In this document: piece after piece, positions 17,701 to 64,000 of the stretch
Layout: each line of letters begins with the position of its first letter
Position numbering within the stretch: the stretch's first letter is position 1
Assembly (NCBI GenBank): GCA_950106755.1
Contig: OX467083.1
Location: forward strand, 45,088,555 to 45,152,554
Source: Climacium dendroides
Taxonomy: Eukaryota > Streptophyta > Bryopsida > Hypnales > Climaciaceae
Length of the DNA: 64,000 bases
Direction: 5' to 3'
Position numbers and translations under genes: made by a program
Notes under the pieces: generated by a model
The model's input: only the letters and a program-made list of their open reading frames with translations
What the model was told of the DNA's origin: nothing
Databases searched by the model: none

Positions 17701-17939
17701 TTAACCCTTTACGTACTAAGAATTCACTATTTCAAGTAGTGGACTTTGATTGAATGTTTTGTAGAAAGCATAATCTAAATGGAAAATTTTATTATATAAT
17801 TATCTTGAGTGAAGAACATTGCATTCGTTGGTTTAAATAAATAATTATTTAAATAAATAAAAATCCCCATATAAAATCTCTAAAGTTGCTGAAAAAAACA
17901 TGAGACCCAATTTGGGCTTCTTAGACACTAAAGGGTTAA
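17701..17939. mobile_element. TTAA-flanked inverted-repeat element (MITE-like), 239 bp
   Basis: The left end is TTAACCCTTTACGTACTAAG; the reverse-complemented right end is TTAACCCTTTAGTGTCTAAG, matching at about 16 of 20 positions. TTAA is present at both ends. It sits exactly at the downstream boundary of X8 block copy 1 and has no ORF of interest. Confidence 0.65.
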
Positions 17940-30900: not shown

Positions 30901-31200
30901 TTCTTACTAGGACGAGAGTGCAACTATTGATCCTCAAAATTTTGTTGTGAAAAGGGGAGGTTTTTTATAATAGTTTGACTTCCAATGAGTACTTTTGCAA
31001 TTTTTTAAAGCAAATGATCTACACAGTAACCAAAGGAATGATTTCACCAATCATTAGTCCATCCTTAGTGCTAATCTTCAAAAATAAAACATAGTTTAGG
31101 TCCATTCCATGTCAAGTGATACGTAATCTGTGACTTTTTGTATTGCTTCTTATGGTTTTGTATTCATAAAAATATGTTTTAAGGTAGAAATACCATAAAT
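27905..31200. repeat. Segmental duplication, X8 block copy 2 (matches 14240-17700)
   Basis: See X8 block copy 1. Divergence is modest in exons and introns alike. Indels are scattered, and a shared TCCATTCCATGTC stretch marks the far end before both copies run into AT-rich repeats. Confidence 0.85.
27986..29784 (-). CDS. X8-domain protein, copy 2, GPI-anchor exon missing
   Basis: Minus-strand exons 29727-29784 (signal peptide, MMKQWWTVVVLFLVATLVLG), 28826-29200 (X8 core) and 27986-28019 (SGTCVFPPSN) match copy 1, with all splice sites retained. The X8 cysteines and the SVWC, CYIPNTLSHHCDWAFNAYF and SCDFSGTA motifs are intact. The homologous block ends inside the next intron: no counterpart of the Ser/Pro-rich GPI exon of copy 1 (13839-14001) was found down to 27460. 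If the GTAAGT donor is not used, the frame stops at once (GTG TAA), giving about 156 residues, a secreted X8 protein without an anchor. Without splicing at 28826 the second exon also stays open to 28686, giving about 190 residues. Likely role: soluble callose-binding wall protein, or a gene on its way to inactivation. Confidence 0.7.
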
Positions 31201-32434
31201 AAAAATTTAAGCATTTCAACTTGTAGGATGTGGAGAATTCATTGGGAAGTTGAACATGAAAATCAGATGACGATGAATTCACAAATAATAGAATTTTTTT
31301 CTTCAAGAATGAATATTTTATTCAATATATATGTGGATTTTTTATATGGAATCATTTGTGGCTCATAGCTTCATCTAAAATATCTACCTTTCAAACTTGT
31401 TCTTACTACCTATGTGGCATAAATTGTCTATATGGCAATGGGCTCTCGAAGGAAGTTTGGGTTGGCTAAAAATAGAGGCCCAAATTATGGCTCCTAAACC
31501 TTATAACAAGATCTCAATTGTTAAATTGCTAAGAGTTTGGACTTTGGCTTGGCATTTGGAGGCTTCACACTATGACCATTCAAGTTGAGAGACCATTTAA
31601 GCAAAATGTTGATAAGGTAGGTGAGGCTAAAAGTGTCTATTTAAGAGGAGATCCATCCATTACAATTTGATTTGTATTTTCTTAAACTTATAAATATATA
31701 TTATTTACTTCAATTTTATTGAATTCATCATATATATAGTGTGGTTTAAAAAAAGTCAAGGACATGGGTTTGAATGAGAAGTTCTCTGGTAAGAAAAGTT
31801 GAGTAGAAAACCATCAGGTACACAGAGAGGCTTTAAGAAAGATGCTTCTCCTTCAAAAAATAACTCATACAAGGCTATAGGTAGGCAATTTGAAAATTCA
31901 ACAAATGACTGTAATCATTTTGGATGTACACATCTAGTGGTGGATTAGAATGTAATTGTCCAACCAACATTTCTTCCTGTTTTCCAATGTGTATTTCTTT
32001 CATCTTTCTTCATTAATAGATTGTCCAATCAACTTTCCTTCCATCTTTGGTGTAGGCTTGGGTGCCATTGCTTTATGAAGAGATTTTACTTCTGTAAATA
32101 TTTGCATTATTACCCCATGTGCTTCAAATTTCAAAAGGAGCCCTAATTATATTGTAATGATAAGGAATGTTTTGCAATAAATTATTTAGATTCAACCTAA
32201 TTTGATAACAATTATAGTATTAAATTTATTAACATACTATCTTTTACCATCACTAGTACAATAACATGGGATGCTTTAAGTAAGGTTTTTAGTATAGTTT
32301 TCTAATACTAAAACTTTAAGATAGTGACTTTCTAGGAGATTTTTAGTAAAAATTTATTAAAAATGCATAATTTCAAATAAAAATTTGCTTAAAAATCTTC
32401 TAAAAGGTCATTATTTAAGATACCCTAATATTTT
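31201..32434. other. AT-rich spacer after X8 block copy 2
   Basis: No gene recognised. Short ORFs (for example 31397-31588) lack motifs. 31300-31340 resembles 19250-19290. Confidence 0.4.
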
Positions 32435-35400
32435 ACAATAGATGAATATTTTTACCAAGAGCATACATATCAATACTATTTCAAAGTCAAGAGGATCTCT
32501 ATAAACATAGTTGGTCAAAATATTTATCAAAGGTAAAATTTTATAGTATTTTCAAAATAATTACTGTAGGTGACACTTAATACAATTAATTTTTTGGTGT
32601 ACTTTTGTAAGTGAGAGAGTAGTGCAATAAGACTTCATTAAGGCCAAAAACGCAAGTGGTGCGTTTGTGTAGAGCCCATGGATTACTTGTTTATCCTACT
32701 TGTACAACTCACCGTACAAACTTTCAACCAATTGCATATCATTTTTCTTATATAGAAAAATAAAAAATATCTCTATTATTTACACACCATGCTAAGTACA
32801 AAAAAAAACAATGTTGAAGAGTATTGTTCATCCAACTAAAAATAATCTAATTGTAAGGGCATAGAAAATTTGAAGATGAGTATTGTGCACTTTACATTCA
32901 AAAGTTGATGTTGTTAGAGATTTTCATGCCATTGGTATAGATGGTTTAAAACTTTAGAAAAGGGAAAAACTGTAAGAAGACAACCTCATCTAAAAGTGTC
33001 TAAATAAAAATGTAATTACTAATATCAATTTTGTTTTATTTTAGTTTTTTGGTGGTATTGTCAGGAATTGAAATACATTCTAGATTCTCTTAGTGTTTTT
33101 TTTGCATCATATATGAGTAAAATTGTAAATTTTCAAAGGGCTCATTACAAATGTGTTTAAGAAAGATTTTAAGTTCTTATGTTTAGAAAGTATTGAATTT
33201 AAATATTCAACAAGGTTGCAATCAACTATTTTCACCTCAATAGGTGTTGAAAAGGAAAAACATTGTCTTGGTAAAATACTTGAGTAATCCTAAAAAAATG
33301 GAAAAGAGACCATTTGATTTTGAAAATGATATAGGACACATCTTTTCAACCAATACTCAAAATTCATCGCATAGCATATATTTGTTTTCTTAAAACAAAG
33401 AAATTGTTCACTTTATTCACATTTCTTAAGCTAACCACATCCAAAACCAACCTACTGGCATCTAAATAAGTCTTCTATTATTTCAATATCTTAGTTTTTG
33501 TTTGATCTTCTTAGTAATTGAAAGAGGATTCCATAATTATAGAATTTTAAAGTTAGACACCCATATAAAAAAAACTATGAACAAAATTCAAAGAGGGGTA
33601 GGGTTTTAAATATATTTAACAAATATCCACATGGGATGCCCATCTAGTGTGTTATTCAAACTAAGAGTGTGAGTACCAATTGGATGCTAAGATTGATTTG
33701 TATTATATTTTGACTATACTATTTCTTCCAATTAATACAACTACATTGTTTTTGTTGAAAATGTGTTCAAAATAGCATTCATATCAGTTATAAAGAACAA
33801 TGATTTATGCTAATTTTTTTTCAAAATGAAGAATAGTATAAAGATTTCTAAAGTAATAATTTTCTTTTTTTTCCTCTCAAAACACTATTGGCATTGATCT
33901 TGAAGTCAAATAACCAATATCATTTTCAAGCTAGCCTTTATATAATTCCTTAATAAAATTTTGTTATTTTTAATATGTGAATAATTTTTTAGGGGGATAC
34001 AAGAATTTTGATGGAAAAATAAAATTATTTTTTCTTTTTAAGTGAAGCATGTAAATTAAACTACATCAATTGAAGCACATATACAAATAATTTTTTGAAA
34101 TTTTTACTAAAAATTTAGAATGGAGAATGATATTTTTTATTTGAAATATATATATGAATGAAAAAGACACAATATTGTGTAGTTTTGGATTTCAACATGT
34201 TGAGCAAGCAATTTCAACAAATCATTTCATTTTTTTAAGTTTCAAAATGAGTAGAAACCTAATTTATTTGCTTGCATTTTGTTTCTGTCTAAATTAAATA
34301 TTAAAAGTAGATGTTTTGAAAGTTATATTTACAATCAAGTTCAACCAATTAATTTTGGATGTTGGGGTCTTTAAAGGTGATGATTGTCTTTTGACCTTTA
34401 AAGCATCACCACTATGTCATGGTAAGGGATTTAGGCATTGTAAGTAAGGAGCAAGACTTGTCAAAGCCTCTATTGGAGCACATGTACAACAATGGCACCT
34501 TCTTATCTCATCCGATATTTACTTGTGTTCAAACCAACATTTAGAGCTTTGCAAATTCTCCATCAAATCAGAAACCAAAAAATCATTATCTCTATTTTGT
34601 TGTCATTTCTAGATTTCTAGTGGGAAAGCTTGATTGTAGTCAAGATTCATCTTGATTTTCTCTGGATTTATGAATTTGCTTTTAATAGAGGTTAACAATA
34701 TCTACACCATAAAATGGACACCATGAGCTTGCTAAAGCCCATATGGTGTGTTACAAATGGTAGTTCATTATAGTTGTGCTCTAATACTTGAGGGCTTTAG
34801 ACAAAATCTAGATGCACAATGACATATTTCATAAAGTTTTTATTGAAAGAAGAAATGTTAGACATAAATATTGATATTGCCAAATTTGAAAAAACACTTG
34901 TAGATCTTTGTAAAATGAATTTAGATGCATTTAGATTTAAGAATTCATCAAAAACATATTTCTTTTTTTATTGTTTTGAATTTGGATATGATTGATTAAA
35001 TCTATAAGGTTATTAACATGGTATAAAATAAATAACCAATTTTATTATTTTAATATTCAAAGCATTACAACTTTCAATATAAAGTGAATCCTTTAACAAA
35101 GGAAAAACTTCATCCCTTCATTCTTTATCCATATGGAGAGATATGTAGGGAAATATGGCATTAATGAGAAATAGTTTGAAAGTTCAAAAGTTATTTAGGC
35201 AAATGAAAATGAAAAGTGTATTAAAAGCAATAGTAGCATGTTGGGGTGCATCATTCTTATAAATTCATTTCACTTATATCTCATAGAACTTTGACATGTA
35301 GATATAAAAGCATTAACATTTTAAGATTGTCACATAGGGATTTTAATGTTTTCAATCAACAAAAATCAGTAAAGAATTGTACTAAATATCATATGAAAAA

Positions 35401-35757
35401 GAGACATGTAAAAAGAACATACATTTGCTTAAGTAGAGATACTTCTAATTAGTTGCTTGTTCACCCCTAAAGTTTTGAAGTGTTTTGAGGTTCAAAACCT
35501 CTTCAAAATACTCATATCCAAAGCAAGGCTAAAATCTTCATCTATATTTTTTCTTTAACAAACCTAATAGTAGGATCCTTTAGTTAACTTGTCCAAGTAA
35601 TTACATCTTATCCAAGTAAAAGTTCCTTTTGATTGCATTTACACAATATGTTGGAAACTGGATTGAAAAGAAAAGTAAGAAAATTACGAGTTCAATAGAG
35701 CTTGCCTGAGCACTAAGAAAATCCAAAGTGGGTTAGCCTTGAGTCCTTGAAAATCAA
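32435..35757. repeat. Long AT-rich block B, copy 2 (matches 21675-25775)
   Basis: Collinear with copy 1 apart from an extra segment at about 32520-32835 and the missing 660-bp palindrome segment. Spacing between the copies is about 10.5 kb, consistent with duplication together with the X8 blocks. Confidence 0.75.
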
Positions 35758-36335
35758 TAAATATGCTCAAAATTGTGACTTCACAGTCCCTGTAAAACCC
35801 ACACTACCTGTATTATTATTGTGGGGGTTCTCAAAACTACTATACAGAGAAATAAGCCTCTTCAAAATTGTTGTGAGCCTGTGATTGCAGGGTTGTAAAT
35901 GGAAAACAAGTTTGGCGTTCAAAACTTCAATTTCCACACAAACATCGCCATGAGCACGTCCCCATTCAGCATTGAATGCCAGCATTGTGAAATGCATCTC
36001 AGTCCATCAACTCTCCAAGATTCAGTGCACATCAACTGGGAATCGATGGCGTTCAGATGGAAAGTTTAGACAGTAACCGATGACCAAGTGCACGGTATTA
36101 ATATGCACGTCCTACACAAAATTACGCTACAATGCGAAACCAGTGAAACTTCAAATCAAAATGACAAGAGCATGATTTATGTCTCTGGAATTGAAGGCAA
36201 GGCAAAACATCAATTCCATTCCCAAGAAGTTCCTCCAAGATTTTACAATAATTCAGCACGATTACATTACGGCATTGTCTGTTAGGTCTCTGAAACTGCA
36301 AGAGCATGATTAATGTCAATATCAGGTCTCTCAGG
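35757..36335. repeat. Duplicated segment, copy 2 (matches 27455-27960), no X8 gene attached
   Basis: Same order of landmarks as 27455-27960, then similarity stops where X8 block copy 2 would begin. The X8 gene is therefore absent from this third unit. The 76-codon ORF at 35767-35997 is broken in the other copy. Confidence 0.7.
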
Positions 36336-37115: not shown

Positions 37116-37631
37116 CTAATCGTCGTCCTTGTACTCACGGCGGTCGAGGTATCGTGGCTGCACTCCACTCCCCTGGCACGTCGTGCACGTCAAGGAGCCA
37201 GAGCCCTCGCAATTGATACACCGGGAGACTTCCCGCTCTCCACCTCCAAGCTCCACCGTGATGTTCCCCGCACCCACGCAGAAGCGGCACACTTGCGAGC
37301 CCGTTCCTTTACACGGGAAGCACGGCTGGTCATTCTCCCGACCCTCCGAGCTTTTCACCTGCGACTCGTAGAAGATCGGCACGCCGATCCCGACTGCGAC
37401 GCCTGCCACGCCCACGCTGATTGCAAGTATCGTATCCTGGTCAAGCTCCAATGCGCGCACCACCAAGCTCTTCCTGCTTCTCGACGAATTTTTCACTCCA
37501 TTCTTGGCCAAATTGGCGCTCAATGGGGGCAAAAAAGAGCTTGAAAGAGAGGGCTTCGACGAGGCAGGCGCAATTCCAGGCAGCGAGGGTGTCGTCCAGC
37601 ACGGGCAGCGGCGAAGAAGAGACGACGCCAT
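37116..37631 (-). CDS. LQY1: LQY1-like thylakoid zinc-finger protein (DnaJ-type Cys-rich domain)
   Basis: A single uninterrupted frame of 171 residues from the ATG at 37631. The Ser/Pro/Arg-rich first 55 or so residues look like a chloroplast transit peptide. A membrane segment follows (ILAISVGVAGVAVGIGVPIF, about residues 68-87). Then come four DnaJ-like CxxCxGxG-type repeats: CFPCKGTG, CRFCVGAG, CINCEGSG and CTTCQGSG. The C-terminus GVQPRYLDRREYKDDD matches the family signature. Arabidopsis LQY1 is a thylakoid protein with disulfide-isomerase activity that associates with the photosystem II core and assists its repair under high light; the same role is inferred here. Length and domain order match the family. 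It lies downstream of the FLAP1-like gene on the same strand. The opposite-strand ORFs here are GC-rich shadows. Confidence 0.93.
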   Translation of the reverse strand: MASSLLRRCPCWTTPSLPGIAPASSKPSLSSSFLPPLSANLAKNGVKNSSRSRKSLVVRALELDQDTILAISVGVAGVAVGIGVPIFYESQVKSSEGRENDQPCFPCKGTGSQVCRFCVGAGNITVELGGGEREVSRCINCEGSGSLTCTTCQGSGVQPRYLDRREYKDDD

Positions 37632-38375
37632 GGCTGCGGCAGCAGCGATGCTGGCAAGGGGGAAGAAGGCCTTCGGATAAGGGCCCCACGGATTCGCACG
37701 ACGGTTCTCACGGGGATAGGGGGTTGATCAGGGCCCCACGGAGCTTATCCTTCGACCCGGAGGTCTGTTATGAATTTCAGTTTAGGCTACGTGGCAAATG
37801 GGGAGGGCCTTTTGGTTCTTTTGCGTGGGGTCCTTATCTCGTAAGAAATTTGAGAAACTCATGGCCGAGACATTCAATGGTTGCACTCAAATTCTAAATT
37901 CAGATTTTGAGTGCATTTCTCAATCAAATGTTCTGAGTGATGTCTTGTTGGAAAGCTACTTAGAATGTACGAGTGAGCTATAACAGACCCTCTAAGTCCG
38001 AGTATTGAGATCACAGCAAGAAATTGAAAACGGACACTATTGGATCTTGTAGGAATAGGATACTATGGACTTCAAGGATGTCGAAGCTAAAGTACAGTAG
38101 ATAAAAATCGGATAACTTGTAAGCAACACGAGCAACAAATGGACTGTTTATAAAGAAACCATTTCAGATAACTTAGAAACCAGGATTACATTCGGTTTCA
38201 AATACCAGGACAATCGAAACTATCTGAAATGCATCTTATGCACACAGATGGCCTGTATGTCACTCCAAATATTGGAACTCTGTAAATGTACACGTTATAT
38301 TGAAGGCAGGACTGTGTTCTGGCTGGAGAAAATCTCTGTGAAATGTACAAGTGCTTCCTACCTAGAGCTGGGTTC
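37632..38375. other. Intergenic: LQY1 upstream region and FLAP1-like 3' flank
   Basis: 37632-37780 is GC-rich and likely contains the LQY1 leader and promoter. The remainder is ordinary intergenic DNA. ORFs here lack family features. Confidence 0.4.
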
Positions 38376-47439: not shown

Positions 47440-47460
47440 CACTACAACAAAAGCAGTGTT

Positions 47461-48400
47461 TTATGACTGCAAAATATGACTGGCAGCAGTCATAAAATCG
47501 AAAAATATGACTGACGCAGAAATCACTGTAGATGACTCGGAATATGACTGACTCCAGTCGTTTCGAAGCAGTCGCTTCAGACATCAGTCATATTGGCAGT
47601 CATATTTTCCGAGGGGTATAAATACCCATTTTTAGCCATAGTATGCCAACTAGGCGTATACTTTGACTTTCCTAGGGGAGTCTTGACTTTTATTTGGGTT
47701 GCTCGGGCAAATAAAAAAATCCTACGTGGAATACGACTGGGTCGAGTCATATTTTTTGATGACGTGGAATATGACTGCGATTAGTCATATTTTTGATGAC
47801 GTGGAATATGACTGCCATGAGTCATTTTTTTGATGACGTGGAATATGACTGTGGTGAGTCATATTTCGCAGTAACATGGAATATGACTGTGGTCAGTCAT
47901 ATTTTGCAGTGATGTGGAATATGACTGCGGCGAGTCATATTTTGCAGTAATGTGGAATATGACTGCTTAGTCATATTTTTTGATTAAATGGAATATGACT
48001 GGTGAGTCATATTTTGCAGTAACATGGAATATGACTGCGATAAGTCATATTTTGTAGTGACGTGGAATATGACTGTGGTCAGTCATATTTTGCAGTGAGG
48101 TGAAATACGACTACGGTGAGTTATATTTTGTAATTATGTAAAATATGACTGCGGTCAGTCATATTTTGTAGTGATGTGAAATATGACTGGTGAGTCGTAT
48201 TTTTTAGTAACATTAAAAAATGACTGCAATGAGTCATATTTTATTATTATATCGAATATGACCAAGATGAGTCATACTTTGGAGTGATGTACAATATGAC
48301 TCATCAGTGAAGTTACATTTTGTAGTGATGTATAATATGACTGTGTTCAGTCATATTTTTGGAGAACACGCAATATGACTACAATGAATCATATTCCATG
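47461..48400. repeat. Left subterminal array: about 19 units of a ~40-bp palindromic repeat
   Basis: Units have the form AATATGACTG-N(2-5)-AGTCATATT and are joined by spacers such as TTTGATGACGTGG or TTGCAGTGATGTGG. Several spacers carry the TGACGTGG (ACGT-core) sequence recognised by plant bZIP factors. Each unit could fold as a hairpin. Position and density fit the TnpA-binding subterminal repeats of CACTA elements. Confidence 0.85.
47614..47627. promoter_or_regulatory. TATA-like box in the transposon left end
   Basis: GGGTATAAATACCC, with inverted flanks, lies between the first palindromes and the main array. Both strands offer a TATA-like core, so direction is undecided. The adjacent gene runs towards this end, which would make a rightward transcript antisense to it. 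Confidence 0.35.
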
Positions 48401-48793
48401 TTATTGTGCTTAGTTATATATTTTTAGAAGTATTCACATGTATTTCGAAGTACAAATTTCAAAAGCGATAAAGCAGTTCTACGCTACCTAAGCTTACTTG
48501 GATTATTCATTCATGTTTTTCATTGCTATGAGTGACTTCCACTAATAGTCTCTATAATTAGAAATCATTTTGTCTTCCAGACAAAGAAAATCAAATTCAC
48601 ACTCTAATATCATATCCTAAACATGTCTTTGCAACTTCTCAAATCACAAGACATGGATATACATTCCAAAATGTACTTCAATGACATTTATTACTGAACT
48701 TCAAAACACATATGAAAAAAATCACACTGAGAACACATAAACACACACCTCACTTTATATTAGAGTGAGCAATCCACTACTGCATACCTTCAC

Positions 48794-51700
48794 TCATTCG
48801 TTTAAAGAAGCCAACGCTTCAATGGGCCACTTTGTCACAGACTTCACAGCATCACCTACATGCACCATAGGAGGGTCGTCGTTGTTGTTTGCCTCATATA
48901 AAAGAACCATCTCCGATCCGGGAACCACAGATGTTATGCTTATAGATACATTGCCCTCTTCAATGAGCCGTCCATGAAGTGAACCTCCTGCAACATTCAC
49001 TATGACTCCATGCGCAATTACATTGTCTTTTGCCTTGTTGTCATCGTCCACATCGAACACCTTCACTTTCGACCCTACAGCCAAGGAGATAGGACTTTCA
49101 TTCTTTGAACTTCGAGAACCTTGAAGATATTTCTTCCCACCTTGTGCATCCTGCATTTACATTTACAATGGTTGTAGACATTAAGTAAACAAACGATGGA
49201 GCTTCACTTTCACTTCTGAAATTGAAAGGCAAACAACATATTCAAAAATACATACCTGGGGCAATGGATTCTGTAACTGACTGATTGCCTTGTCCAAGAA
49301 CATCACACAATATTCAATGTCGGAAGGATTTTGACTAAAAACTTCAAAGGGTCCTTTCATGTTCTTTAGGAAGTTGTCTTCTGAAGCTAGAGGATCCCAT
49401 GCAGGAATGTGTAATACATTTGTACCAGGTGACTTAGAGGTAGCTGTGGAATCCCAGTCCACTTGAAGGACCCTAGCTGATCCATGGGTTGGATCTGGTA
49501 TCATGTCAAATAAATCATGCAAGTCTCTTTTTCCACCACCAATTTCCTTTCCCCATAAAAAACACCACTTCATGGGTGTCCCCCGAGCTAGGAATCGAGC
49601 GACTTCTTGTAGAAGCGCCTCTCCAATTGGAGTCCATATCCCCACATCAAATCGATAGTGGAGCATTGTCACAAAAGCTGCACAGTCTTCCCTTTTCTTA
49701 ATTTTGACTTCGAACTCTCTCTCATAATGGATCGTACCACCTAACCCCCACTCTTTTCCATCATGTAGTGGTCGGATGTCACATAGAAAACCCAAGACAT
49801 TCAACACAAGTACCTTTCTTCGTGAATCATCCGAAACTCTCACCGGTGGAAACTTCAGTTTCCCTGAAATATTCTTTTTCTTTGAAGGTTTTCCAACCTT
49901 TGCGGCCCTCATTGGCCCCCTCCTTTTGGTAGGCTCTTCTTCCATTAATTTGGAATCGAATTCCACATGATGTTCTCTAGAGCCTCTTGCTCCAATCTAC
50001 ATGCACATCAACAATTTAGTATTCAATGTCATGGTATTATAACAATTATAAATTCAACACATACAACAACAAAATATCAATTATGAAACATAAATACATA
50101 CGACTCAATAACACTTTTGAGACTTCAAAAGTAAAACACCCACTATTATACACTTGGAATAATAGTGTCACTTTATTTAAATGCTGAAAAATTATTGACC
50201 CCCACAACATGCGACAAAATTTACTTCATGGTACGACTTCACATAATGAGAAATACAAATACTCCTTTTCATACACTTTGTACAACAAAAGGATCCTCTT
50301 AGACCAAAACAAAAAATTACTATCCCTCTAAATAGAAATGGATACAAATAATCAAACGTTAACAAAGGTACATACGAAAACGTATGGCACATACATCTGA
50401 CAAAAACATTAATATGACTCTCCACATAATACAAAATTTAGTCGTCATTACGTATATATTTTAAAATACAGCTTCCACTAGTTATATATTAAAAAATATT
50501 ACTGCCATTTACTCTAAAATATATAATATGACTGACAATTGTTATATACTATAGAATATGACTAGCATTAGTGATGCACAGCAATATATGACTGCCAACA
50601 GTCACATTCTGCATAATATGACTGACACCAGTCATGTACTAAATATTACCACTATGGTCAGTCGCATCATGCAAATAATGACTGCAATCAGTCACATAAT
50701 AAAGATTATGACCACCAGCACTTGTTTTCTTCTACATGTTACTGCTTTTAATTATGCACACATGCTTTTGTTCAAGTTATGGCACCTAATCCACAAACAT
50801 GTTCAACAGAACTCATACACTTACAAAACATATTCCATAAAATGAACCTCCCTACATGATGTCTAACATTGCACCATCTACCATTTCAAAGGAAGGACGC
50901 AATCCATAATTATATGTTCACCTATAAGAATTATACCTTGTTCCCACCCCTTTTGCACACACAATACCATAAACTACTGCAACATTTAATACAGTCATGG
51001 CAGTCCATCACACCTTGGGATCCTCTTTCACCTCCTTCATCTTCTCACCAATCTTCCCTCCAGTCAACGTTGAACGCCTAGATTGATAACTTATATCTGC
51101 CCACAATTTTTGACCCTCGCCCTTCCTCTTCTTCACGCTCCCTTGATCCTTTTTTGCTTTTGTAACATCTATTACTTCTTCAATTTGATCCAGCACTGGC
51201 AAAGTGCTGGGTTTTTGCTTTACATTTCTTGACTTATCAATCGTCCCTTCATCCTTTAAACTCACAATGACATCCACAATTTAGTAGTTGAGATTCCATG
51301 TCTACCTACTACACATTACATGAAATTCCAAAAAAATACAAAAGAAACAAAACCTATTCAATTACATTGAATGACACTAAAGGGTTTCTTATTTTTGTAC
51401 GAACCTCCACTGTTGCATGCACTACCTCAACACCTTTCGACACGTTCAATACATGTGCTTCTCTGGCTGTTTCTTCCTGTATCTTCTGAGGGTTAAGTTT
51501 CTTCAAACCTACCAATTCCTCCATGATCTCCTCACCACCTGCAACTTCTGGCACTGTGGTGCCTATTTCAGAACTAGACGGGTGTGTATTCCCTCCATTC
51601 TGCTTGCGGACTTCAAACAGAAGCTGCTTCACTAGGGAACCCATTTCACTTAATTCTCCCTTCACAGTCTCTTGAAATGTATACAATTCGTTTCGCACTT

Positions 51701-54700
51701 CTTCTATGCCTTTACCCGCCCTCCTTGAATTACTACCCGCCCCTCCTGAATTTGACGACCGAATGTGCACTGATTTGTCTGGTGAAGCTAGCTCTGCTTC
51801 CACTTCCATTTGAGTAGGGGGTCTCCCCAAATGTGCAGCCTACAATGACGGCAACCCTATATGTGTAAATTTCAAGACCAAAACATTCAACCATAGTGAA
51901 ATTTCTTGAAAGCATTGACAAACAATAAACTATTTCACATTGTGATGCACATGTCCAATTACAACAACTACTACTTACATAACTTACTATTTTCAAATGA
52001 AACTTCTCATATTGAAAACTAAATATGAGCACATGTACTTTTATAATTACCTACACATGACTATACATATTCACATGTACATCCAAATATGACTTCAAGT
52101 AGTCACATACAAGGCTAAATATAAATATACTTAGTCACAATACAATCTACATACAATTTTAAGTACATTAATGTTTGTTATTTATGATTGCAAGAACTCA
52201 AAGCAACATCCTATCCATCATTTTTTCTTCTCCTGAATATGTCCTACTTATGGCTAAGCATTGTCATATGACCAACAAAGTTTATCTTCAACACATATTA
52301 CATTCAGAATTTCATGTTTATAAAAATAAAATCCAAAAGACAATGACTACGAACACCCATCTACAATCACATGCGTACATAGAAGTTACAAAAGTGTAGA
52401 CATCTCTTTCACTTACCAGTCGTGACTTCACTTCTCCCTCAGATCGGCCACTATAGGACACTTTCTGCACGGTTTGCCGTGCAACCTTCATGCGTTCTGA
52501 ATATGCTACTTTGTCTGTCCTTTTGATGAGCTTCTTGAAGTTCTCTACATGATGAGCCTTCACAGTTCTGGGAATGGGAGCTTCGGCCTCTATCAATTTC
52601 TTCATGTTTGCTCTCTTTGTCTTCATTTGGGACCTCAGAATGCGGAAGAAGACATTATCAGGAACATCGCCTTTCCCACCACGATACTCGAATTTGGATG
52701 CCATTTTGTCCTTGATTGCTAGTAGTAGAGGTCGGGGATGTGAATTGAAGTCATCCACACTCCAATCCAAATCACGAGAATATCCACGCAGCTTTGTCAA
52801 CCAATCCGCCCTATGCACTCCTGTAGGACAACCAACAAGGTCCACTTCAACCCAATCTCTATCATCAACCTTCTGCAGATCCCTCCTGAATTGCTTCAAA
52901 TTGGATTGTCGTTGAAGACTTCTGCTTCGGTCCACATTGCTAACTTCCTTCCCTTCATTTCCACTCAGTTTCCGCATTTTCTCACGTACTTCCTTCAAGT
53001 TTGCTCCACTCTTTGCCATGCGCTTTAATATGCTGACTTCCCGTAACTCCAACTCATCCACTACATCATTGGACAACTCTTCATTTGGGACATCTCCATC
53101 CTCCTCCGTACTAAAGTGTTGCTCAATATCTTCATCCGATTCCTCCCCCATCATTGTCTCCTCTGTGTCATCGAACAAAAAATTGTCCTCTTCCAATGGT
53201 GTTGTGACCATCATTTCTGTTGATGAAGTCATCTTCTTCTTCCGTGTGGCTTCCTTGGGCCACGGCCTAGGGTGATGACGTTGATGGCTAAGCAACTGTA
53301 AATGCAGAAAGAAACAACTTATAATATGAGTATAATAAGTACAGAAGGAGGACCTTCATGTCCTACAGAACTAAAAAAAAACTACCAAGAAATAAATTTT
53401 TACAAAACATGAAGTTCAACTTCTGAGTTACTCTCTAGGAAATGCAAATTCTAATTATCTAATTTTCATCACATGAGTCTGAACTCCTAATTTTTACCTC
53501 ATATCTATCAAAAAAATGTCTACAATGAGCACAATTCTTTGTAATTGGCCTCTCTAAACTACAAACAGTCACGAAAGATCACTTCTGACTATAAATTCGG
53601 ATAAAAGCTAATGTCTAACTACAAACAGTCATAGAACACCATTTGCGACTGGGCTTCAAGTCACATAATAATGTTTGTGACTACAATTAGTTATAAAAAC
53701 TCATTTCTGACTACACGCAGTCATAGAACACCATTTCCGACTGGGCTTCAAGTCACATAATAATGTTTGTGACTACAATTAGTTATAAAAGCTCATTTCT
53801 GACTACATGTAGTCATAGAACACCATTTCCGACTGGGCTTCAAGTCACATAATAATGTTTGTGACTACAATTAGTTATAAAAGGTCATTTCTAACTACAA
53901 GCAGTCACACAACACCATTTGTGACTGGGCTTGAAGTCACATTATGATATTTGTGTCTAGAATTAGTTATAAAAGGTCATTTTCGTCTATAGACAGTCAT
54001 AAAACACCATTTGTGACTGGGCTTGAAGTCACATAATAATATTTGTGACTGCAGGGAGTCACAAATGATTATTTTTCAATTGACTTGCAGTTAGAAAACA
54101 TCTTTTCAGAACACCTATGAAGACTTGGCTTTCACTCACAAAATATCATTACTAACTACTCACAGTCACAACAGATGATACATCACTACAAAATGTCTCA
54201 ACAAATGAATATTGACTGCCACGAAGTCACAGTAAATCAATATAGACTAACAGTATACACAATTCTAAATTCTTCAGTTCGAAGTGAACAAAGCGTTGCT
54301 ATTCATGACTCCGGTCAATTAGACATGATCATTTTACAGTACAATGTATTGTAATTGGTCATTACTACTAAATAAAGGGTTATGTATTGACTTAGTTTAA
54401 CTCTAATGAATCACATGTGCTCATATGAGAGTAACTTCATTTACAAATTCTCTGTTCCTGCTTCTCTCTCACAAACATCAACCTTTAAAACTATTGAAAG
54501 TCAGAAATGACTAATACCAAATTGTTGAAGACAAATTATGAGTCTATAAATTAATGCACTTTTAAAGAGAAATTGAAAACTACTACTAACCACATACATA
54601 TGGCAATTGCAATAACAAAACACTTCAACAATGATGGAAAACTTCTTTAAAATTCAATGAATTATGTGTCTTTCTCCAACACAATTAGTTCCAATAGGAA

Positions 54701-55412
54701 AGGACTGAAGCTAACCTTTGACTTACAACAGTCTTCTTGCAATGTTTCTTCTACTTCTTTGTCATTGCCTCCTGAGTTGATGTCAAAACTACGTCCTGGT
54801 AAAGCCCTCCACGTTGTTGCCCGTGTGTGCCTCTCCAATGTTGGTAAGATAGTGCCAGAGTTCTCCACTCCTTTTCCTCGATTTATACCTTGTGGCTTAT
54901 CAAGGGGCACGTCGCGACTGCTCTCAAAAATCCCCGCAAGATGATTAGAAGTCATTTCCAATATAGGAAACGTAATTGCTGGAAAACTAGCAATTGTGCG
55001 AAACAATTCCACTTGCACATCATCTGGCAAATTAGCTATTTGTCTTGTCATTGTCGCCAAGATATTCTCCATAGTTCTCAATCCTAAAGCCCTGATGTAA
55101 TTGATTTAAGTCAAAAAACACATGGGTCAGGAATCTTCATTAAGTTTAATAAAAACAAAATTTCCAACATTTAACTTCTACATGTACATTCATTAATATT
55201 GAACAGGGGCAATGGTTTTAATTTCACAAAAGTTCAATACACGAATTCATTTACTTCTTAAAAACTACGTAGAGCTTAGTATCTTACCTTGTTTCTCTTA
55301 TGTTTGCCAATTGTGTCGCAATGTCGAACAAGCCTAGATCACTCAATTTTTGTGAGTTCCTTTGAATATTTTCCTTTCTCAACCTCTCGTACTTAGTGAT
55401 CTCTGAAGCCAT
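48794..55412 (-). CDS. Transposase_24-like protein with embedded degenerate FCP1-like HAD domain, seven exons
   Basis: Minus-strand exons 55288-55412, 54716-55091, 52417-53295, 51405-51839, 51014-51253, 49256-49996 and 48794-49150 join in frame (3153 nt, 1050 residues). The N-terminus (YERLRKENIQRNSQKLSDLG) resembles the YEKLRxERIKxNxExLxxLG motif of plant transposon proteins. An acidic, then basic region follows, with SGRSEGEVKSRLAAHLGRPPTQMEVE (about residues 450-475), like the GRxPT signature of Transposase_24/Ptta proteins. Residues 735-900 look like a plant FCP1/NIF phosphatase domain (KVLVLNVLGFLCD, RFDVGIWTP, LQVDWDS), but the DxDx motif I reads NVLGF, so catalysis is unlikely. The last 105 residues (AVGSKVKVFDV, VIAHGVIVN, GDAVKSVTKWP) match the C-terminal beta domain of such transposon proteins. 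Introns 2 and 5 hold TGACT arrays. Exon 5's acceptor (TTTAAAG) is weak; other joins are good. Confidence 0.7.
50520..50720. repeat. Internal TGACT/AGTCA array in intron 5 of the transposon gene
   Basis: About five units such as ATATGACTGCCAACAGTCAC and ATATGACTGACACCAGTCAT at about 38-bp spacing, in a different spacer context from the left array. Confidence 0.75.
53580..54070. repeat. About 93-bp tandem repeat, five copies, in intron 2 of the transposon gene
   Basis: Each unit has GACTGGGCTTCAAGTCACAT, then TTTGTGACTACAATTAG, then TTCTGACTACA..AGTCATAGA, giving three TGACT/AGTCA pairs per unit. The middle copies differ by only a few bases. Confidence 0.85.
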
Positions 55413-58400
55413 GCTATTGTGCTTGTTTACATCAAACAATCCTACTTGGAAAGGAAAAAATTGCATCTTAGTACAATAGTGACGTCTCAGACATTAATGC
55501 TAATATATTTTTCATCCGTATATATTAATAATAGGAAACAATAAAAAAGCACTACATAGTACTTCTTTAAATTGGAAACTACAAATACGCAAGAAACTGA
55601 AAATCATTGTACTAAACAATAATACATTGAATTGACATTCATAGCACAATTCAATGCATGCAGAACGTTCAAAACCTTTTTTACTTTCTTAGAGACCCTG
55701 TACTATACTCTGACTATGCGACAATATTATTTGAAGGCCACATATGAGAACAGAAATACACAAACTTATAGATAATTTTATTCCTAATGTCCAATCGCTC
55801 ATTGAATAACATGCACCTTCCTAAACTCAATTATATTGAAGAAGATTGTAAGCAGGGAAAAATTTCATTCCATTGTAGACAATTGTTTGAATTTACGTGA
55901 CCAATGTAAATGACTAAAAACACCTACAATGATTGTTTCTTACTAAATGAAGAAAGAGAACTGCATGTGGCTTCCCTACAAATCCCAAATGAACAAACAA
56001 ACAAGAAAAACAAAGACAATACACAATACTATGGGAGGCAAGGCATTCCTAATTAATCCCAAATTCTTGCAGTGTAGGGTGTGCTCTTTCGATACATGAA
56101 GAGATGAATAGTTATGAATGACTTGGAACAGTTGCTGTGAATTATGATTGTTTACAAGTCTCTCAATATTGTAAGCAACCCTTCATTGATGTTCTTGTGA
56201 AGCCATGGTCAAGAAAAACAAGTCCTACATCACCAGTATGGGAGGAACACTGTTTTGAGGTAAATAATTCATAGTAAATCCATTTTATATCAAAAAAATA
56301 TGAAAATTTCGGAAAACATCCCAAATTCTATTTTAGCTCATTTCAACATTCTTCCACTAATTTGAATCACCACACAGATGTGCAAATTTGCTTAAGTGGT
56401 TAGGAATGCATTGCCTCCCATAAATGTCCACTGTAAATAAACAAATAACAGGTGATGTGCATTAACGTACTTGTAATAAAAATGTTGCACTGCACTACCC
56501 TCAAAAGAGCAAATACGCTTGCTCTAAAGAATCACCAGTATAGCTTGTTATTTCCTCCGTTGCCAATATAACACTGCAAAAGCGAAGTGGAAAAAAAAGA
56601 AGTAAATACGGTTCAAACAACCTCAACAATCTGAAAAACCTTTCATCAGAAACGCTCTAAATGCTGACCAGATTCTCACCAATTGTGAACTGATAACCAT
56701 ACAGCAACACACACCAAGTGCACGCTACTTTCCTAACCATTTGCAAAATGACTGCATCACAGTACAGAACGAAATGAGCCTCACGAACGGGGTTCAAGGA
56801 GAAAATGGTTAAAAAACGAACAAGCAGGTCTCACTAAGCTTCTAAATAATTAACAGGTTTCATGAAATTTACAGCTGTAACAAGCAGTTTCTAATTGAAA
56901 ATTGGAATTGAAATAAAAAAGTCAGGGAAAGTAAGCCCTTCGGAACTGCGTATTTGTACTCATTCTGACTTTGCGAGACACAACATAATTATTTCTGACT
57001 TGTCTCTGTAAGAGACCTCAGTCGATGTAGCTAACTGAACGCGCTTCACACCGACCAAGTAACTACACGGCAAATGAGTGCGACTGACACATTTCAAACA
57101 GAAAAGATTTATAGAAAAAGAAACTGAAATCGCAGCTGCAAAATATCTGCAATACCTGCATTCTGAGCAGCCTTGCTCCATCAGACGATGTTCCAAGTTC
57201 CTTACTCCCGGTAGGGTAGAATTTCCACAGTTGATCAATTGCCTGCTCTGGAGCACGTACCTACTCCATATATCCAAAACGTGCAACAACAAAACACGAT
57301 AACACTTCTAATTAGACCGGCAGAATATGGAGTGATGAACAAACATGAATGTTTTCCAAAGAGCTGTTATTAATCCATGAATAAAGTCTGTGGCCAACTA
57401 TCTCTGTTGAGTTCTCGCTCTACAAGTCGACAGTGATCATCTCACTGGATATGCTGCACCCTATGAATGGTTTATTTTGCCCTCAATTTTGCACCCTAAA
57501 TCCCCGCCAAGCTCTTGTAGCACATGTCACACGTACATGATTTCGTCCAACCTTAGCATCGAGAATTGAAACAAATGCAGACATGGGATGATACATGATT
57601 CGCGGTCAATTGCAATCCCAAACTGCTTATACATACACGATGAAGAGCGTCACTCACAAGAGATGAATGCACTCCGACTATATATGCACTGTCTGAAAAA
57701 CGTCAGTAACTCATGCGCATAATACAACCAAAGCCAAATCATATATTGGTACAACCTGTGAAGAAACTGAACTGGCAAAGATAAAGTATCAGCACTTTAA
57801 ATTTTTAGAAGTACATACTTGCTGAAATTAAGTATGGACTGAATTCATTCTCCATACTAGCTAGGATACAGAAAATGATGTGCAGGATATCGTAAGTTGT
57901 TAACTTCTCGATTGCAGACTACTGTAACTAACAATAAATAAAAATACAATTCTTCAAAATTTTCTATAGCAGCTGGCATACTCCAATCTGTAATTCATCG
58001 TAGCTTGGAACGTGGAGAAGGGAATCCGGAAAATGCGGCAAACATGGGAAATCATTGGCAGAATTTTTTTTGTACAAAACAAATTTATAACTGGGAATGG
58101 AAATCCGGGAATCAGCCAGAAGTAACTTCATCTCCCTATGCGGCAACAACTCTTAGAATTTATGTTCACAACCGCTTAATTACAGACTACTGTGCAGTAC
58201 TTTGATTTTCAGCTCACAAAAGTCATATGTAATTTCTACAGTACCAATATTCCTAATTTTTATGCCATATTCCAATCTGTAAATCATCATGAAGAGCGAC
58301 AAAATGCCAGGATCGCACCTAAACCGAGAGCGAGCTTCCTGCAGAAGTTGAACCTCAATTGTGATGTAAGGGCCGCACCTGGCACACGATTAGAGCAGCT

Positions 58401-61400
58401 TCTCCAGTACGCTAACTTCGCTGTACTAATCTAAACGGACCGTCTGCACCAGAGCTAAGCCATCGAAGTGTCAATGTTATTATCACCGATGGTTTGCATG
58501 GCTTGCAGAGGGGGAAACAGAAGCAACTCAACAGGAAAGAAAGAGGCGGAACAGCAACGACGAAGAAGGAAATCAAATCATATTGAAGTCGCGGCTTACA
58601 AGCAAATGTTCACGTCCCACGGAGTCTCATGCCGGTGCTTGGCAAACCAAGATAGCTTAGGGAAATGTTCGAAATCTAGTCAACCAGCGAAGGAAAAACA
58701 AGAGTGCTCGGCTGGTGAAGGAAAGAAGTCGCAAGTTGTTGGGTAGCTGAACCTGCGCTTGAGTCGGAGCTGGAGCGGCGGCCAAACTGCACTGAGCCGG
58801 AGTTGAAGCGGCGGCCCACAAGTCATGAATGCAGTGGGACCGATTAGTAGGTGCTAAAATAGCACTGTCACTGGGGCACTGGAGTTTCACACACAGAAGT
58901 CCCCCGAAAAGTGAAGCGCTGCCACACTTTACAGAAATAACAACAACTAAAAATAGAATTTCGTTGTGGTGGCTTCTTCCGTTGCATTGCATGCAGACGT
59001 GTTCTCCTTCGTTCACCGATCTCTCGCAGGAATTGTTGGGCCCCTGAATTCTCGGTCATGTAGGAGCTTTGGTGAAGTATTTTTTCTTTGTTGGTTTAGG
59101 GGGTGCAGGCTAAGATTCAAGTGGTTTTGCCTGTGCAGGTGGGTTCCATTGACAGAGAATCCTCGGAGACATCCATGAGTCAAGAAATCGGTGGAGGAGT
59201 TTGCGGTTCGATGAAGATACATTTGCCGTCTGTCGTGATCACCCTGAAAGACCTTCCTTTCTATGTTTCCTAAGCTTTGAACTTAGTGAGAATCCAAGCG
59301 GCTTGTAGTAAAACTACTGTGCAGATTCCTTGCTTCTCGCTCCCACATGCTCTCTGGATGGCAGAAGTCCCTCCTGCGGCACTTCTAGGTAAGGATTTTC
59401 CTCCTTTTTTTTTTCTAAACCAAGCTCATGTACAGGGTGTGTGCTGGACTTTGTCTACGTAAACACATTCACGTAGTTAGACATGAATTTGATGGAAGGG
59501 GATGATGTTTGCCGCTTTGACCTTCAACTGTTGGCATGAAATCTAACAAGGGAAGCTGTTGCTGATCGATTCCTTCTCTCAATGCAGCATTTTGAAATCA
59601 AACAGATAGCAACTTAGACAGTCATGCCCTTGCAAATTTGTGAATTGGAACGATTGAATCAATTTAATTTGTTGAGTCAAAGGTAGCATTAATAACAAAC
59701 CACATTCTCAGGAATACATTACAACCAACCAGAGTGGGCATGACTAGAGCTCATCACTTCTCTTCCCGAAATGGTCACGTCAGTACGTAATAATGTACCG
59801 TTTCAGAGCTCTGACACTATGTTGAAGGAAACCTAGACATTTGCGTGTACAGAGTTCTCTGAACCCGGACTGGTATAAGCTAAGACTGATCAATGTCGGT
59901 CAGAGGTTCTAGATAGGAGTATGATAGTTTAAATTTGTAGAAATTTTGTCAATTTTACGATCATTACAATCAAACCAGTTGAAGACCTTGCAAAAAACGT
60001 GCATAGCTATCATAGAAATGGTATCATTCGGAGTCAGCTCATCAATATAACAATTAATTGTATGTGATTTTTCAAAGGTCATTCCACCGCATGATTGCAA
60101 CTTCCAAATGATAAGCCATGCAGGGTTTTAGTGTTTTTCAGGGTTGGTTTAGGGTTTAGGGTATCAGGTCTCATACAGTATGGATCACTCTGATGGTTCA
60201 ACTAAAGGGTGATAGATTTCATGGAACTACGTTTCCACAAGTTCCAACTTCATATGCACTAGTCCCTTGAAGTTGGTGTGGATCTTGAATCATTTTCATT
60301 GTTACTGTATGTCGGTTTGACATGGTACCGGTGGTTAGCAAATTTGTGAGTTTCGGTCAATGAATCGCATAAAGGCATCACATTCATGAAGAATCTGAAA
60401 AGCTAAGGAAAAATTCAAAGAGAAGAAAAGTGGCTGAATTCTTGAATTCGATCGTTGGTGGTGCAAAGTTTGGATTGATTGATCGAATGTGAATCCCAAA
60501 ACAATTTTTGAAATAACAATCAAGAATCAAGAATCCAGTGAGAGGAGTTGCAATGCCTTCACCTCCAATTTTAAAGTTTATTCATGTAATGCATGAACTT
60601 GGTGTTCTCCTTGTTGAATTCATATTCATAATTACCGCGTGCTGTGGACAAGGTCAAGATCAACGAGGATTGATCAAAATTCGGAAGTTTGGCGTGGCAT
60701 TTTTGCATCCTCCATGTAAACTAGGAACTTAAAACAGTCATAAATTTTGATCCCTTGTGTATCCTCATTCTTAATTTAAGTTTCACGTTCATGAATTCAA
60801 GTTGAACAAGGCATCATGAGTAGAATTGAAGGCAAAAGATTGATGCCACCATGTTCTTGACCATTAAATATTTATGGTTTGGAGTTCAAAATGCACTCAT
60901 TATGAGAACAAGTGAAGCCATTAAGAATATAGCTACCGTGTTGTTGACCAATAAGATGTAACTGTTCATAGACTCTCACCATCATTATGGAAATTAAAAT
61001 TTGTTAATTGTTTTAGAATTTAGGATTTCTGTTTGAATTCTATATCATAACATTAACCTCGTACGCAATGGAAATCAGGTATTCATGATTGAAGACGCGT
61101 AACTGTGCATCACTGATAGGCACGTTCCAAAGGTGTTGGTATTGTTCATGTTCTCCAATCCGAACTCATTGAAACTGATGTGGAGAATTTTTTGGTGGAT
61201 CCTCCCTTTCATCAATTTTGGTGGATCTTTCTTTTTACGAAGACGTTGGGGCGTGCTCTACCTATTTCCTAGAGGAGGTGCTCGTCTTCACATGCCAATC
61301 CATTACCTCTTTGTATTGTCTTGAATTCGGTTTTGCTAGATTCATACATTATTACTAGTAGTTGGTTTCTTCTGTAAGGTTAGTTTTATAGAATCTTCAA

Positions 61401-62220
61401 TAGGACGAAGCATCAAATGCTCCTGAAATTATAGTCACAAGAGTAGGAAGAAGTTCTGGGTCACTTGCCCAATTTAGGATTGAGTTCACTGTTTGAAATC
61501 ATCAAAGTCGAACCTTGAATGAATGGCAACGAAGTTTGAAACACTTGAACAGAGCGGCAGCTAGGTATAGGATTGGCTTACACGTAAGTCAATGACCTTG
61601 CACTACAAACATATGCAAGGAAATTGAATTAGAGATGTCATATCCCAAGCATTTGCAACCGGCCAGAAGCACTGGCCCTATTATCTTGGAACTCATTCGA
61701 AGAGAAAAGTAGCAATGTTTTTGTACCCTTCCGGATAACAAAGGCCACCCACTCCATTTACCAATGATGTACACGTCCAACCCCACTTGGTAGACCTCCA
61801 CATGGTACTCTTACTGAAGTAAACCCAAGGTAGTATGCATTGGATTTGTGAAGTTATAGGATCTGCTTTGAATTTAGAGTAGTGCCCCTTTTTGGGGGCA
61901 ATAGGTGCTCAGGGGTTAACAACAAGTGTGCAGCAATAGTAGTTTTAGTATGAGCTCTATGTTCCCACGTGTTGTTAGGTATATCTCCGTTGTTAGTGTT
62001 GGTGGCCCACTTTGCCACAATTTGCCACAATGCCTATTTTTGAGTAGGCATCGAAACGGGCATTTTCCATACTTAATAGAAAAGTATGTCTGGCCTTTGT
62101 GTTGGTGGTCCTCGTATTGTCCCATTGCACTGTGCGTTGGTATGAAATACCAAATTATACTTGAAATGTTGCAATGTTCTTGGCATCCAGCGTAGATGTA
62201 CAGTTGGTGATGTGAGCGAA
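55413..62220. other. Interior of the composite element (or nested DNA); no gene recognised
   Basis: 55413-56000 is AT-rich and presumably upstream of the Transposase_24-like gene. 58400-59300 is GC-richer with leader-like character, but ORFs there (for example 58468-58746) have no motifs. A TTTAGGG pair lies at about 60145-60160, a TTAA-type boundary (CTCAGGGGTTAA) at 61919, and an inverted-repeat pair at 56031-56424. TGACT palindromes are essentially absent, unlike the flanks. Confidence 0.4.
56031..56424. mobile_element. Candidate MITE with ~23-bp terminal inverted repeats
   Basis: TATGGGAGGCAAGGCATTCC at the left faces TAGGAATGCATTGCCTCCCATA at the right, with one internal mismatch. There is no ORF, and the target duplication is unclear (TAT/ATA context). 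Confidence 0.5.
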
Positions 62221-62224
62221 GTCA

Positions 62225-62600
62225 CATCACTATGCCTAGGGATATCATATAACCTAAGTTGTATCTCGACGAACATGACTGTACCAACTCATGTCATGTA
62301 ATGTGAGTTGTATTTCAACTTATATGACTGTACCAACTCATGTCATGTAATGTGAGTTGTATTTCAACTTATATGACTGTACCAAGTCATGTAACTTCAG
62401 TTGTATTTCGACCAACATGACTGTATGAAGTCATGTCATGTAACATGAGTTGTATGTCGACTTATATGACTGTAGTCAGTCATGTCATGTAACATGAGTT
62501 GTATGTCCACTTATATAACTGTATTTAGTCATGTCATGTAACTTGAATTGTACGTAGACTTCTAAGACTATACTGAGTACAGTTTAGGCATTCACAGGAA
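62225..62600. repeat. 49-bp tandem array ahead of the SET gene
   Basis: About seven units containing ATGACTGTA, then AGTCATGTCATGTAA and GAGTTGTATTTC...ACTTATA. It shares the TGACT/AGTCA core with the other arrays but has a distinct spacer. It lies just upstream of the SET gene and may be its promoter region as well as a transposon-protein binding site. Confidence 0.8.
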
Positions 62601-62755
62601 TGAAAGTAGTTGTTGTAAACAATTTCTATGACTCTGGAGTAGTCATAGCCATATTGCAATAGTCATGTTAATGTTCAATTATGACTAATGCAAAAGTGAT
62701 TGAAATATATTACATTGACATTTTTTTGGTAGTGCATATCAGGGAAGTGCACAGC

Positions 62756-63650
62756 ATGTCTGAGGGGGAGCTTCAAAGTTTGCAAGAGCTACGATTATGG
62801 CAAGAAGAAGAAATTGAAGCAGATAACATACGTCTAACAAAGTACCCATGCCCCTGCATGAAGTGTGCAGGAGGAAAAGTGCTTGATAGACGTACAATTC
62901 GAAAACATCTTCGCAGCAAGAAGAGGGACCCAGCTTTTACGGCCTCTATCTTGGTAAGGACATTCAAAATAATGAATTGTTTATTAAAAAAACAGTATGC
63001 TTTTGTCAATGATATACATCTACATTGTTTTCTTAAAGTTTCAGTGACTTGTGTAGGCCTTGTGGAGACCCTATGTGGAAGCCTCCTCTTTGGTTTCTTT
63101 ACAAACATTTGTAAGAGAGACACATACTTCAACGAATGGCACACTAAAAGGAACGTCTACAAGAGTAGTGGCTTTAGAGAAGTGGAGGTCAAATGTGTAT
63201 GATGGACAGTGGTGTGATGGTCCCATACTGAAACTAACAATATTTTCCTATTGGCAAAGAAATTGGGATGTGAAGGTGTCAACGTTTCCTTTCATGGGTT
63301 GGGGTCTTTTTGCCCTGCAACCCGCGAAAAAAGGGGAAGAGTTACTTCCCTTTGTAGGACCCCAGTACACACTAGTAGAGTATAAAATTTTAAAGGAAGG
63401 ACGGCCTCGCATAAAGTCATATGTGATGGAAGTTGAGCCGGACTTGTATATAGACGGAGATGTATTGAAGGGAAATGTAGCCGGATTTATTAATAGTTCT
63501 ATAGGTCGAGAGGAGTTAGGGAACGTCATGTGGGAGTTTCGCATGCAGCCCAAACCATGGAACAACTTGGAGTGGGGATATGTAATGACAATAGCGTCAA
63601 GGGATATTGTGGCTGGAGAGGAGCTGTATGCACATTACTATGTAAATTGA
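62756..63650 (+). CDS. SET-domain protein with N-terminal transposase-associated CCCH finger, two exons
   Basis: Exons 62756-62953 and 63057-63650 join in frame (792 nt, 263 residues) at good GTAAGG and TGTGTAG sites. Residues 30-56 (YPCPCMKCAGG, then RRTIRKHL) carry C32, C34, C37 and H51, resembling the Transpos_assoc domain of plant CACTA transposases. Residues 140-263 form a SET domain: GWGLFALQPAKKGEEL (SAM-loop strand), GNVAGFINSS in place of the usual R/N-F-x-N-H-S pseudoknot sequence, and IVAGEELYAHYYVN in place of GEELxxDY. SET proteins transfer methyl groups from SAM to lysines, typically of histones. The changed pseudoknot residues and the lack of pre- and post-SET cysteines leave activity open. 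Start chosen at the ATG after the acceptor-like CATATCAG; an upstream in-frame ATG at 62681 lies among the repeats. Confidence 0.75.
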
Positions 63651-64000
63651 AAAACGTATTGTCAAATGAATAGGATCATTGAATTTTTCGAAAAAACTAT
63701 GCGTAGTCACACTTTGTATTCAGTCATATTGTGTAGTTAGCAATGTTGTTGAGGCCCACTATATGTGGTGGAATATGATGGTAGAGTGCCAGATAGTGTC
63801 AATTGTTTACATGTGTTTTGGCCTTATGGGAAAGTAGATCATGAACATGAAATTGTGTATTCATGATGTAGTAAGGGAAAATGATAATTATTTTTAATTC
63901 ATACTAAGCATATAATGAATTAATGAAAATTGAATTTTTTGCCAATTTATGAAAACTAAAATTGATAATCATTTCTTTGACTTAAAAGATCCTATTTGGA
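63651..64000. other. 3' flank of the SET gene, still with TGACT-family motifs
   Basis: GTAGTCACA and CAGTCATATTGTGTAGT at about 63692-63740 belong to the arrays' motif family. No CACTA right terminus appears before the window ends. Confidence 0.4.

Follow-up and report, generated by a model that had tools for sequence, protein, structure and literature searches.

The moss Climacium dendroides carries, in the 64,000-nucleotide stretch of contig OX467083.1 analysed here (assembly GCA_950106755.1, positions 45,088,555 to 45,152,554 of the forward strand, referred to below as the window), most of a single 21,974-bp CACTA (En/Spm) transposon which contains a tnp2-type transposase, a second gene with a HAD domain and a SET-domain gene, and which belongs to a family with many near-identical copies. 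Purifying selection maintains the SET protein, and the family is a young, probably autonomous CACTA with a SET protein of its own. An original prediction, made from the letters of the window, had proposed a single composite CACTA element whose parts are linked by a common motif, and this holds, with an exact terminus at 47440 and 87 occurrences of TGACTG/CAGTCA within the element. Few cases, such as VANC, show how transposons escape silencing in plants, and the idea of a plant transposon-encoded histone writer becomes directly testable with a recent family in many copies, one or more of them apparently intact, whose selected SET gene adjoins the transposase at all 30 loci examined. Such SET cargo may help the element to control its own silencing.

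Boundaries and copies of the element

The element occupies positions 47440-69413 and extends beyond the window, which ends at 64000.

47440..64000 in the window and on to 69413 (contig C2:45135994-45157967), forward strand: CACTA element, with both termini, a TTA duplication and six other full copies
47440..47474, forward strand: left terminal inverted repeat, identical to the right repeat (69379-69413) at 32/35 positions

The left terminus is an exact CACTACAACAAAA at 47440. For the right end, 30 kb of contig beyond the window were searched for the inverted terminus, and ...TTGTTGTAGTG followed by TTA lies at 69413, in keeping with the expectation that such an end would be found past 64000. 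TTA also precedes 47440, which gives a target-site duplication on both sides. On the minus strand, CACTACAACAATGGCAGGGTTTTAT at 69413 is the sole strong match (16/19 positions, with the other candidates on that strand at 11/19), and the similarity of the two ends is confined to the outermost 35 bases, with divergence further inward. A right end at 62734 (TTTTTTGGTAGTG) was rejected, since it is followed by CAT instead of TTA and the actual end is at 69413; with two mismatches, TTTTTTGGTAGTG is matched seven times in the window against 4.76 expected.

The genome (412.6 Mb in 123 contigs) was searched with the SET exon, and all match counts from this search are lower bounds. The six other loci that match best, all of the first subfamily described below, were taken at 26 kb each, and every one of them holds the element at full length and colinear (21,756-21,945 bp), so that the arrangement for which other copies had been anticipated does recur. 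All seven copies are flanked by perfect 3-bp duplications, namely TTA (the window copy), GAG, ATG, ATG, TGG, TGC and GTA. Their mean pairwise divergence, in substitutions with indels excluded, is 0.84% (0.61-0.97%), and per 2-kb block it ranges from 0.57 to 1.17%, the stretch at 55.4-62.2 kb included; this evenness along the seven copies identifies the element as one mobile unit. Although the gene-free stretch at 55.4-62.2 kb and the lack of a right end within the window could suggest that 47440-55412 and the part that starts at 62225 arrived as separate insertions, unrelated or nested, this idea, named in the original prediction as the outcome that would overturn it, is refuted and can be given next to no probability, since all seven copies hold both parts and the stretch between them, at even divergence and within perfect outer duplications.

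In that stretch, 55413-62241 (~6.8 kb), no gene was recognised; it is present in all seven copies and diverges like the rest of the element. A 72% inverted repeat links 56030-56183, in this gene-poor middle, to 12910-13070 in the host flank and may be a dispersed repeat or a relic. No stop interrupts any of the exons tested in the window copy. In the other six, stops were found in tnp2 (3/6), DUF4218 (3/6), DUF4216 (1/6), exon 4 of the second gene (2/6) and the HAD exon (1/6), and in none of the six SET exons.

The SET gene and the transposase

The SET gene occupies two exons near the right edge of the window, and three open frames follow it just past that edge, at 64097-65734, 66017-66937 and 67307-68185.

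62756..62953, forward strand: exon 1, with a CPCMKC...H finger (Transpos_assoc-like); possible first exon common to the SET protein and the transposase
63057..63650, forward strand: SET-domain exon, including the stop codon

The three frames match Transposase_21 (tnp2, PF02992; E 2.2e-75), DUF4218 (4.8e-39) and DUF4216 (7.5e-8), and the tnp2 transposase begins ~0.5 kb past the SET exon. The original prediction had the element lacking a DDE transposase because the window edge cut off the tnp2 gene (64097-68185). The peptides LALDG, VNDFP and MHCEKN, presumably the sites of the CACTA transposase D, D and E residues, are invariant in 7/7 copies. Pfam gives the identity of the transposase as tnp2/Transposase_21, not as Harbinger-type. 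Across the 30 loci that best match the SET exon, a sample lying outside the second subfamily, an in-frame part of the tnp2 gene is found downstream of SET in 30/30, and it is stop-free over the aligned stretch in 24/30; at one locus, L017, the transposase piece aligned over 190/334 residues only. A 139-bp mini-element with similar termini and a similar motif (65753-65891 in numbering extended past the window) sits between two of the transposase frames in 7/7 copies.

The SET domain of the earlier reading was recovered in the spliced protein (Pfam SET, E 1.1e-9), which is a predicted lysine methyltransferase by its fold and Pfam match. Canonical SET motifs comprise a GxG-like motif, NHS(C)/NHSC and a catalytic Tyr; the moss protein conserves WGL as its GxG-like motif, the NH asparagine and a terminal Tyr, and the SET core is retained in relatives at ~40-80% identity. 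The genome search gave at least 77 matches to the SET exon, at least 57 of which span all 197 residues, and 36 of these 57 are without an in-frame stop. By identity they fall into two classes, with 39 at 91-100% and 18 at 83-87%, which therefore define at least two subfamilies. Between the subfamilies the SET dN/dS is ~0.17 and the finger exon has a pN/pS of 0.24. The SET exon is stop-free in 7/7 full copies, though 6/7 have a stop somewhere in the tnp2, DUF4218 or DUF4216 exons, and the start codon, exon 1 and exon 2 are all open in 20 of the 30 loci. Scans of viral and prokaryote contigs with the SET alignment gave 74 and 92 candidate stretches, respectively, none of which was confirmed.

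Exon 1 has a donor after 62953, and possible acceptors lie before 63057 and 64145; the 64145 acceptor (CAG|GAT) does not vary among the seven copies. Since both possible junctions are in phase 0, one upstream array could serve a finger-SET as well as a finger-transposase protein; the 600 bp that precede exon 1 contain 16-23 motif words in 30/30 loci.

The second gene and the motif arrays

The second gene, which lies in the TNPA position on the opposite strand, was given a splice model drawn by eye from the genomic sequence.

48794..55412, reverse strand: second gene, exons 55412-55288, 55091-54716, 53295-52417, 51839-51405, 49996-49256 and 49150-48794
52417..53295, reverse strand: exon 3, the most conserved exon of the second gene, of no Pfam family
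49256..49996, reverse strand: FCP1/NIF-like HAD domain with Asn at the position of the nucleophile Asp (NIF E 4.6e-5; LNV motif)
48794..49150, reverse strand: C-terminal exon, in the same reading frame as the HAD domain in the relative P0022

An extra exon is likely to lie within ~51010-51280, with ends that are not fixed. The exons from 55412 to 51405 join in one frame of 605 residues, for which there is no Pfam match above cut-off. The Transposase_24 identity that had been assigned to the gene was not borne out, as PF03004 gave no Pfam match in the window proteins (E <= 10; E <= 5 for the spliced proteins); of the 27 exon-3 relatives, 18 were scanned, likewise with no match. The captured FCP1-like HAD domain was supported, with Pfam NIF at a marginal 23.6 bits against a cut-off of 21.8 (22.4 in the spliced form, and 19.3, under the cut-off, in P0022). 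The catalytic motif of HAD proteins is DxDx. It is replaced by LNV in all 14 rows that cover the motif, from 15 in total, and with Asn in place of the nucleophile Asp the domain is, as judged from these residues, a pseudo-phosphatase that has lost its catalytic Asp, as had been proposed. A PDB search with the HAD profile gave 0 hits, and a structure model with a mean pLDDT of 53.3 was not used.

Protein relatives number 27 for exon 3 and 14 for the HAD exon. Twice, relatives of the two exons occur on contigs of equal listed size, both in ENA (9,700 bases for P0036 and P0022; 133,432 bases for P0061 and P0030), which suggests, without proving it, that exon 3 and the HAD exon adjoin elsewhere too. 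In P0041 and P0055 the frame appears to enter an intron whose translation fits ATGACT..AGTCAT-type repeats, and to judge from these amino acids, the family as a whole may have arrays of the motif inside its introns. In a comparison of the seven copies, the HAD exon has a pN/pS of 0.42 and exon 3 one of 0.48.

The motif that ties the element together is concentrated in its noncoding parts: the 21,974 bp contain 87 TGACTG/CAGTCA words, against 16 for the 47.4 kb that precede the element, and 85 of the 87 lie in 14.9 kb of noncoding DNA against two in 7.1 kb of coding DNA. The outermost 1 kb contains 24 on the left and 26 on the right. Of CAGTCATATTTTGTAGT, the unit of the left array, 19 matches with up to three mismatches occur in the window against 0.48 expected; the match at 7942 falls outside the element, and that at 63721 directly follows the SET gene on its 3' side.

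47463..48400, no strand: left subterminal array of palindromic TGACTG..CAGTCA units, ~38-bp period
50481..50710, no strand: internal motif cluster in an intron of the second gene
53583..54110, no strand: internal motif array of 92-bp units in intron 2 of the second gene
62242..62660, no strand: motif array 5' of the SET exons
63721..63737, forward strand: isolated left-array unit with one mismatch, 3' of the SET exon and followed by the tnp2 transposase
~68500-69390, outside the window: right subterminal array, matching the left one

In CACTA elements, subterminal repeats are bound by TNPA-like proteins, according to the part of the soybean Tgmt* report available (PMC2613891).

Possible role of the SET protein and relation to known systems

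The tnp2 protein would act as the transposase and move the element by cut and paste, and the product of the second gene most likely binds the TGACTG/CAGTCA arrays. Exon 1 could be joined with the SET exon (63057) in some transcripts and with a transposase exon (64145) in others, giving finger-SET and finger-transposase proteins. The former would be recruited to the DNA of the element or to the transposition complex, where it might methylate histones or a protein of the element, so that the element stays transcribed or accessible. The outcome would be an element-encoded anti-silencing or self-regulation, with a logic comparable to that of VANC in the VANDAL elements of Arabidopsis. Taken jointly, the transposase, an array-binding second product and a finger-SET protein for anti-silencing or self-regulation form the best explanation, to which we give an even chance, with splicing, activity and mark all deduced; self-directed anti-silencing is the preferred, hypothetical mechanism. 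That SET would favour expression of the element is deduced from its nearest sequence matches and its conservation, and the idea that the element controls its own silencing gains from the purifying selection on the SET protein and the finger. The finger and the motif arrays together suggest a naturally targeted chromatin editor. A more specific proposal must be put tentatively: one transcription unit may give rise, by alternative splicing from a common finger exon, to both the transposase and a finger-guided histone methyltransferase, and these two, with the dead-phosphatase protein and the noncoding arrays, would keep copies active in trans.

Several observations weigh against this picture. 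In-frame stops interrupt 21/57 of the full-length SET matches, and the window copy is the only one of seven without stops in all exons tested. The start codon, exon 1 and exon 2 are not all open in 10/30 loci, a finger cysteine is lost in two of the 20 open ones, and exon 1 has a stop in 1/6 copies of the second subfamily. SET constraint is weaker inside that subfamily (pN/pS 0.46), and the pooled selection ratios rest on non-independent pairs. In the second gene, exon 2 (pN/pS 1.00) and the C-terminal exon (0.90) show no constraint among the seven copies, the latter value meaning that constraint is not evident among young copies; among the relatives listed, no SET relative lies on a contig of equal listed size to those of the second gene. 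The canonical NHSC position reads NSSI/V, Pre-SET has no Pfam match, and the protein terminates three residues beyond the SET match, which would be compatible with an enzyme of changed activity or none. As for the transposase-type zinc finger that had been read in the SET gene, the CPC.KC pattern fits by eye, and the score does not reach the family threshold: Transpos_assoc (PF13963) gives 18.8 bits against a cut-off of 27.7, whereas the U-box model, over the same residues, slightly exceeds its own (21.8 against 21.4). A U-box was provisionally set aside as the better reading of exon 1, given its marginal score and a pattern judged by eye to be closer to the transposase finger.

Among the alternatives, a role of SET in transposition or self-limitation, in which it methylates the transposase or an array-binding protein, or sets a repressive mark that limits copy number, is nearly as good an account as anti-silencing and, taken singly, possible rather than likely. 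A common finger exon would place SET in the transposition complex, and the structural matches include the repressive EZH2 and SET8 besides MLL, tied within 1 Z, with Foldseek ranking PRC2 entries beside COMPASS. The profile search, in which H3K4/H3K36 writers rank first, speaks against it, but its E-values are weak and EZH2 is in the same list. It is improbable that the SET exon was captured passively (Pack-type) and does nothing for the transposon. Captured gene fragments are common in transposons, and the interrupted SET matches would fit such an origin, but the low dN/dS between subfamilies, the constraint on the finger exon, the core kept in relatives at ~40-80% identity and the stop-free SET of seven copies, six of which have a stop in the transposase exons, speak against it. 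Similarly improbable is a SET protein without enzyme activity that is retained for binding, for which the NSSI/V residues and the parallel of a HAD domain lacking its nucleophile in the same element can be cited, but which fits poorly with the conserved WGL, Asn and terminal Tyr.

Compared with known elements, the moss element resembles soybean Tgmt* (20.5 kb; PMC2613891, as far as the text available goes), maize En/Spm and Tam1 in its CACTA termini, 3-bp duplication, subterminal inverted-motif repeats, tnp2 and large size. In Spm the tnpD open reading frame is drawn from intron 1, and the sharing of exons through alternative splicing is accordingly a familiar theme. Unlike these elements, the moss element has a SET exon between the finger exon and the transposase, and its second gene, on the opposite strand, has a dead FCP1-like HAD and no Transposase_24 match.

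VANDAL21 belongs to the MULE superfamily, other than CACTA, and VANC is, to our knowledge, not a SET protein. The likeness lies in an element-encoded anti-silencing logic, which for the moss is a proposal, and in dense motif arrays in mainly noncoding DNA; in the accessible part of the report, the anti-silencing VANC21 binds dense motifs in mostly noncoding parts (PMC5735166). The original prediction knew of no described family with such a set of genes, a claim that has to be narrowed. According to the portion of the source available, SET methyltransferase genes occur in HarbingerS and MuDR DNA transposons of Phytophthora, which share a SET gene with the moss element but belong to other transposase superfamilies and to oomycetes, and fungal DNA transposons including EnSpm carry TET/JBP genes with a proposed escape from silencing, being CACTA-related and equipped with a DNA-modification enzyme but with a DNA dioxygenase, not SET, and in fungi (PMC12730594). 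SETMAR/Metnase likewise joins SET to the DNA-binding part of a transposase in one protein but is, in the text available, a primate host gene fusion rather than cargo of a mobile element (PMC9062482, PMC4593633). No plant CACTA element with a SET gene was found in the literature, judged mostly by titles and abstracts among the matches listed, with subscription papers and Repbase Reports largely outside. SET genes in other transposon groups are thus already in print, and a plant CACTA with SET is a variant on them; what looks new is that it is combined with a dead FCP1-like domain and with a finger exon that precedes SET as well as the transposase.

The host DNA to the left of the element contains an imperfect tandem duplication of ~10 kb (14246-25767 and 27922-36168; ~70-88% identity in pieces), with an X8-domain open reading frame in each duplicate on the minus strand (14995-15456 and 28689-29264). 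Rfam and tRNA scans of the window each gave 0 matches. Dispersed repeat pairs outside the element are found at 4854-5057/44145-44345 (92%) and 3232-3600/18729-19103 (82%), and a cysteine-rich protein of the BSD2/DnaJ type is encoded at 37119-37727 on the minus strand.

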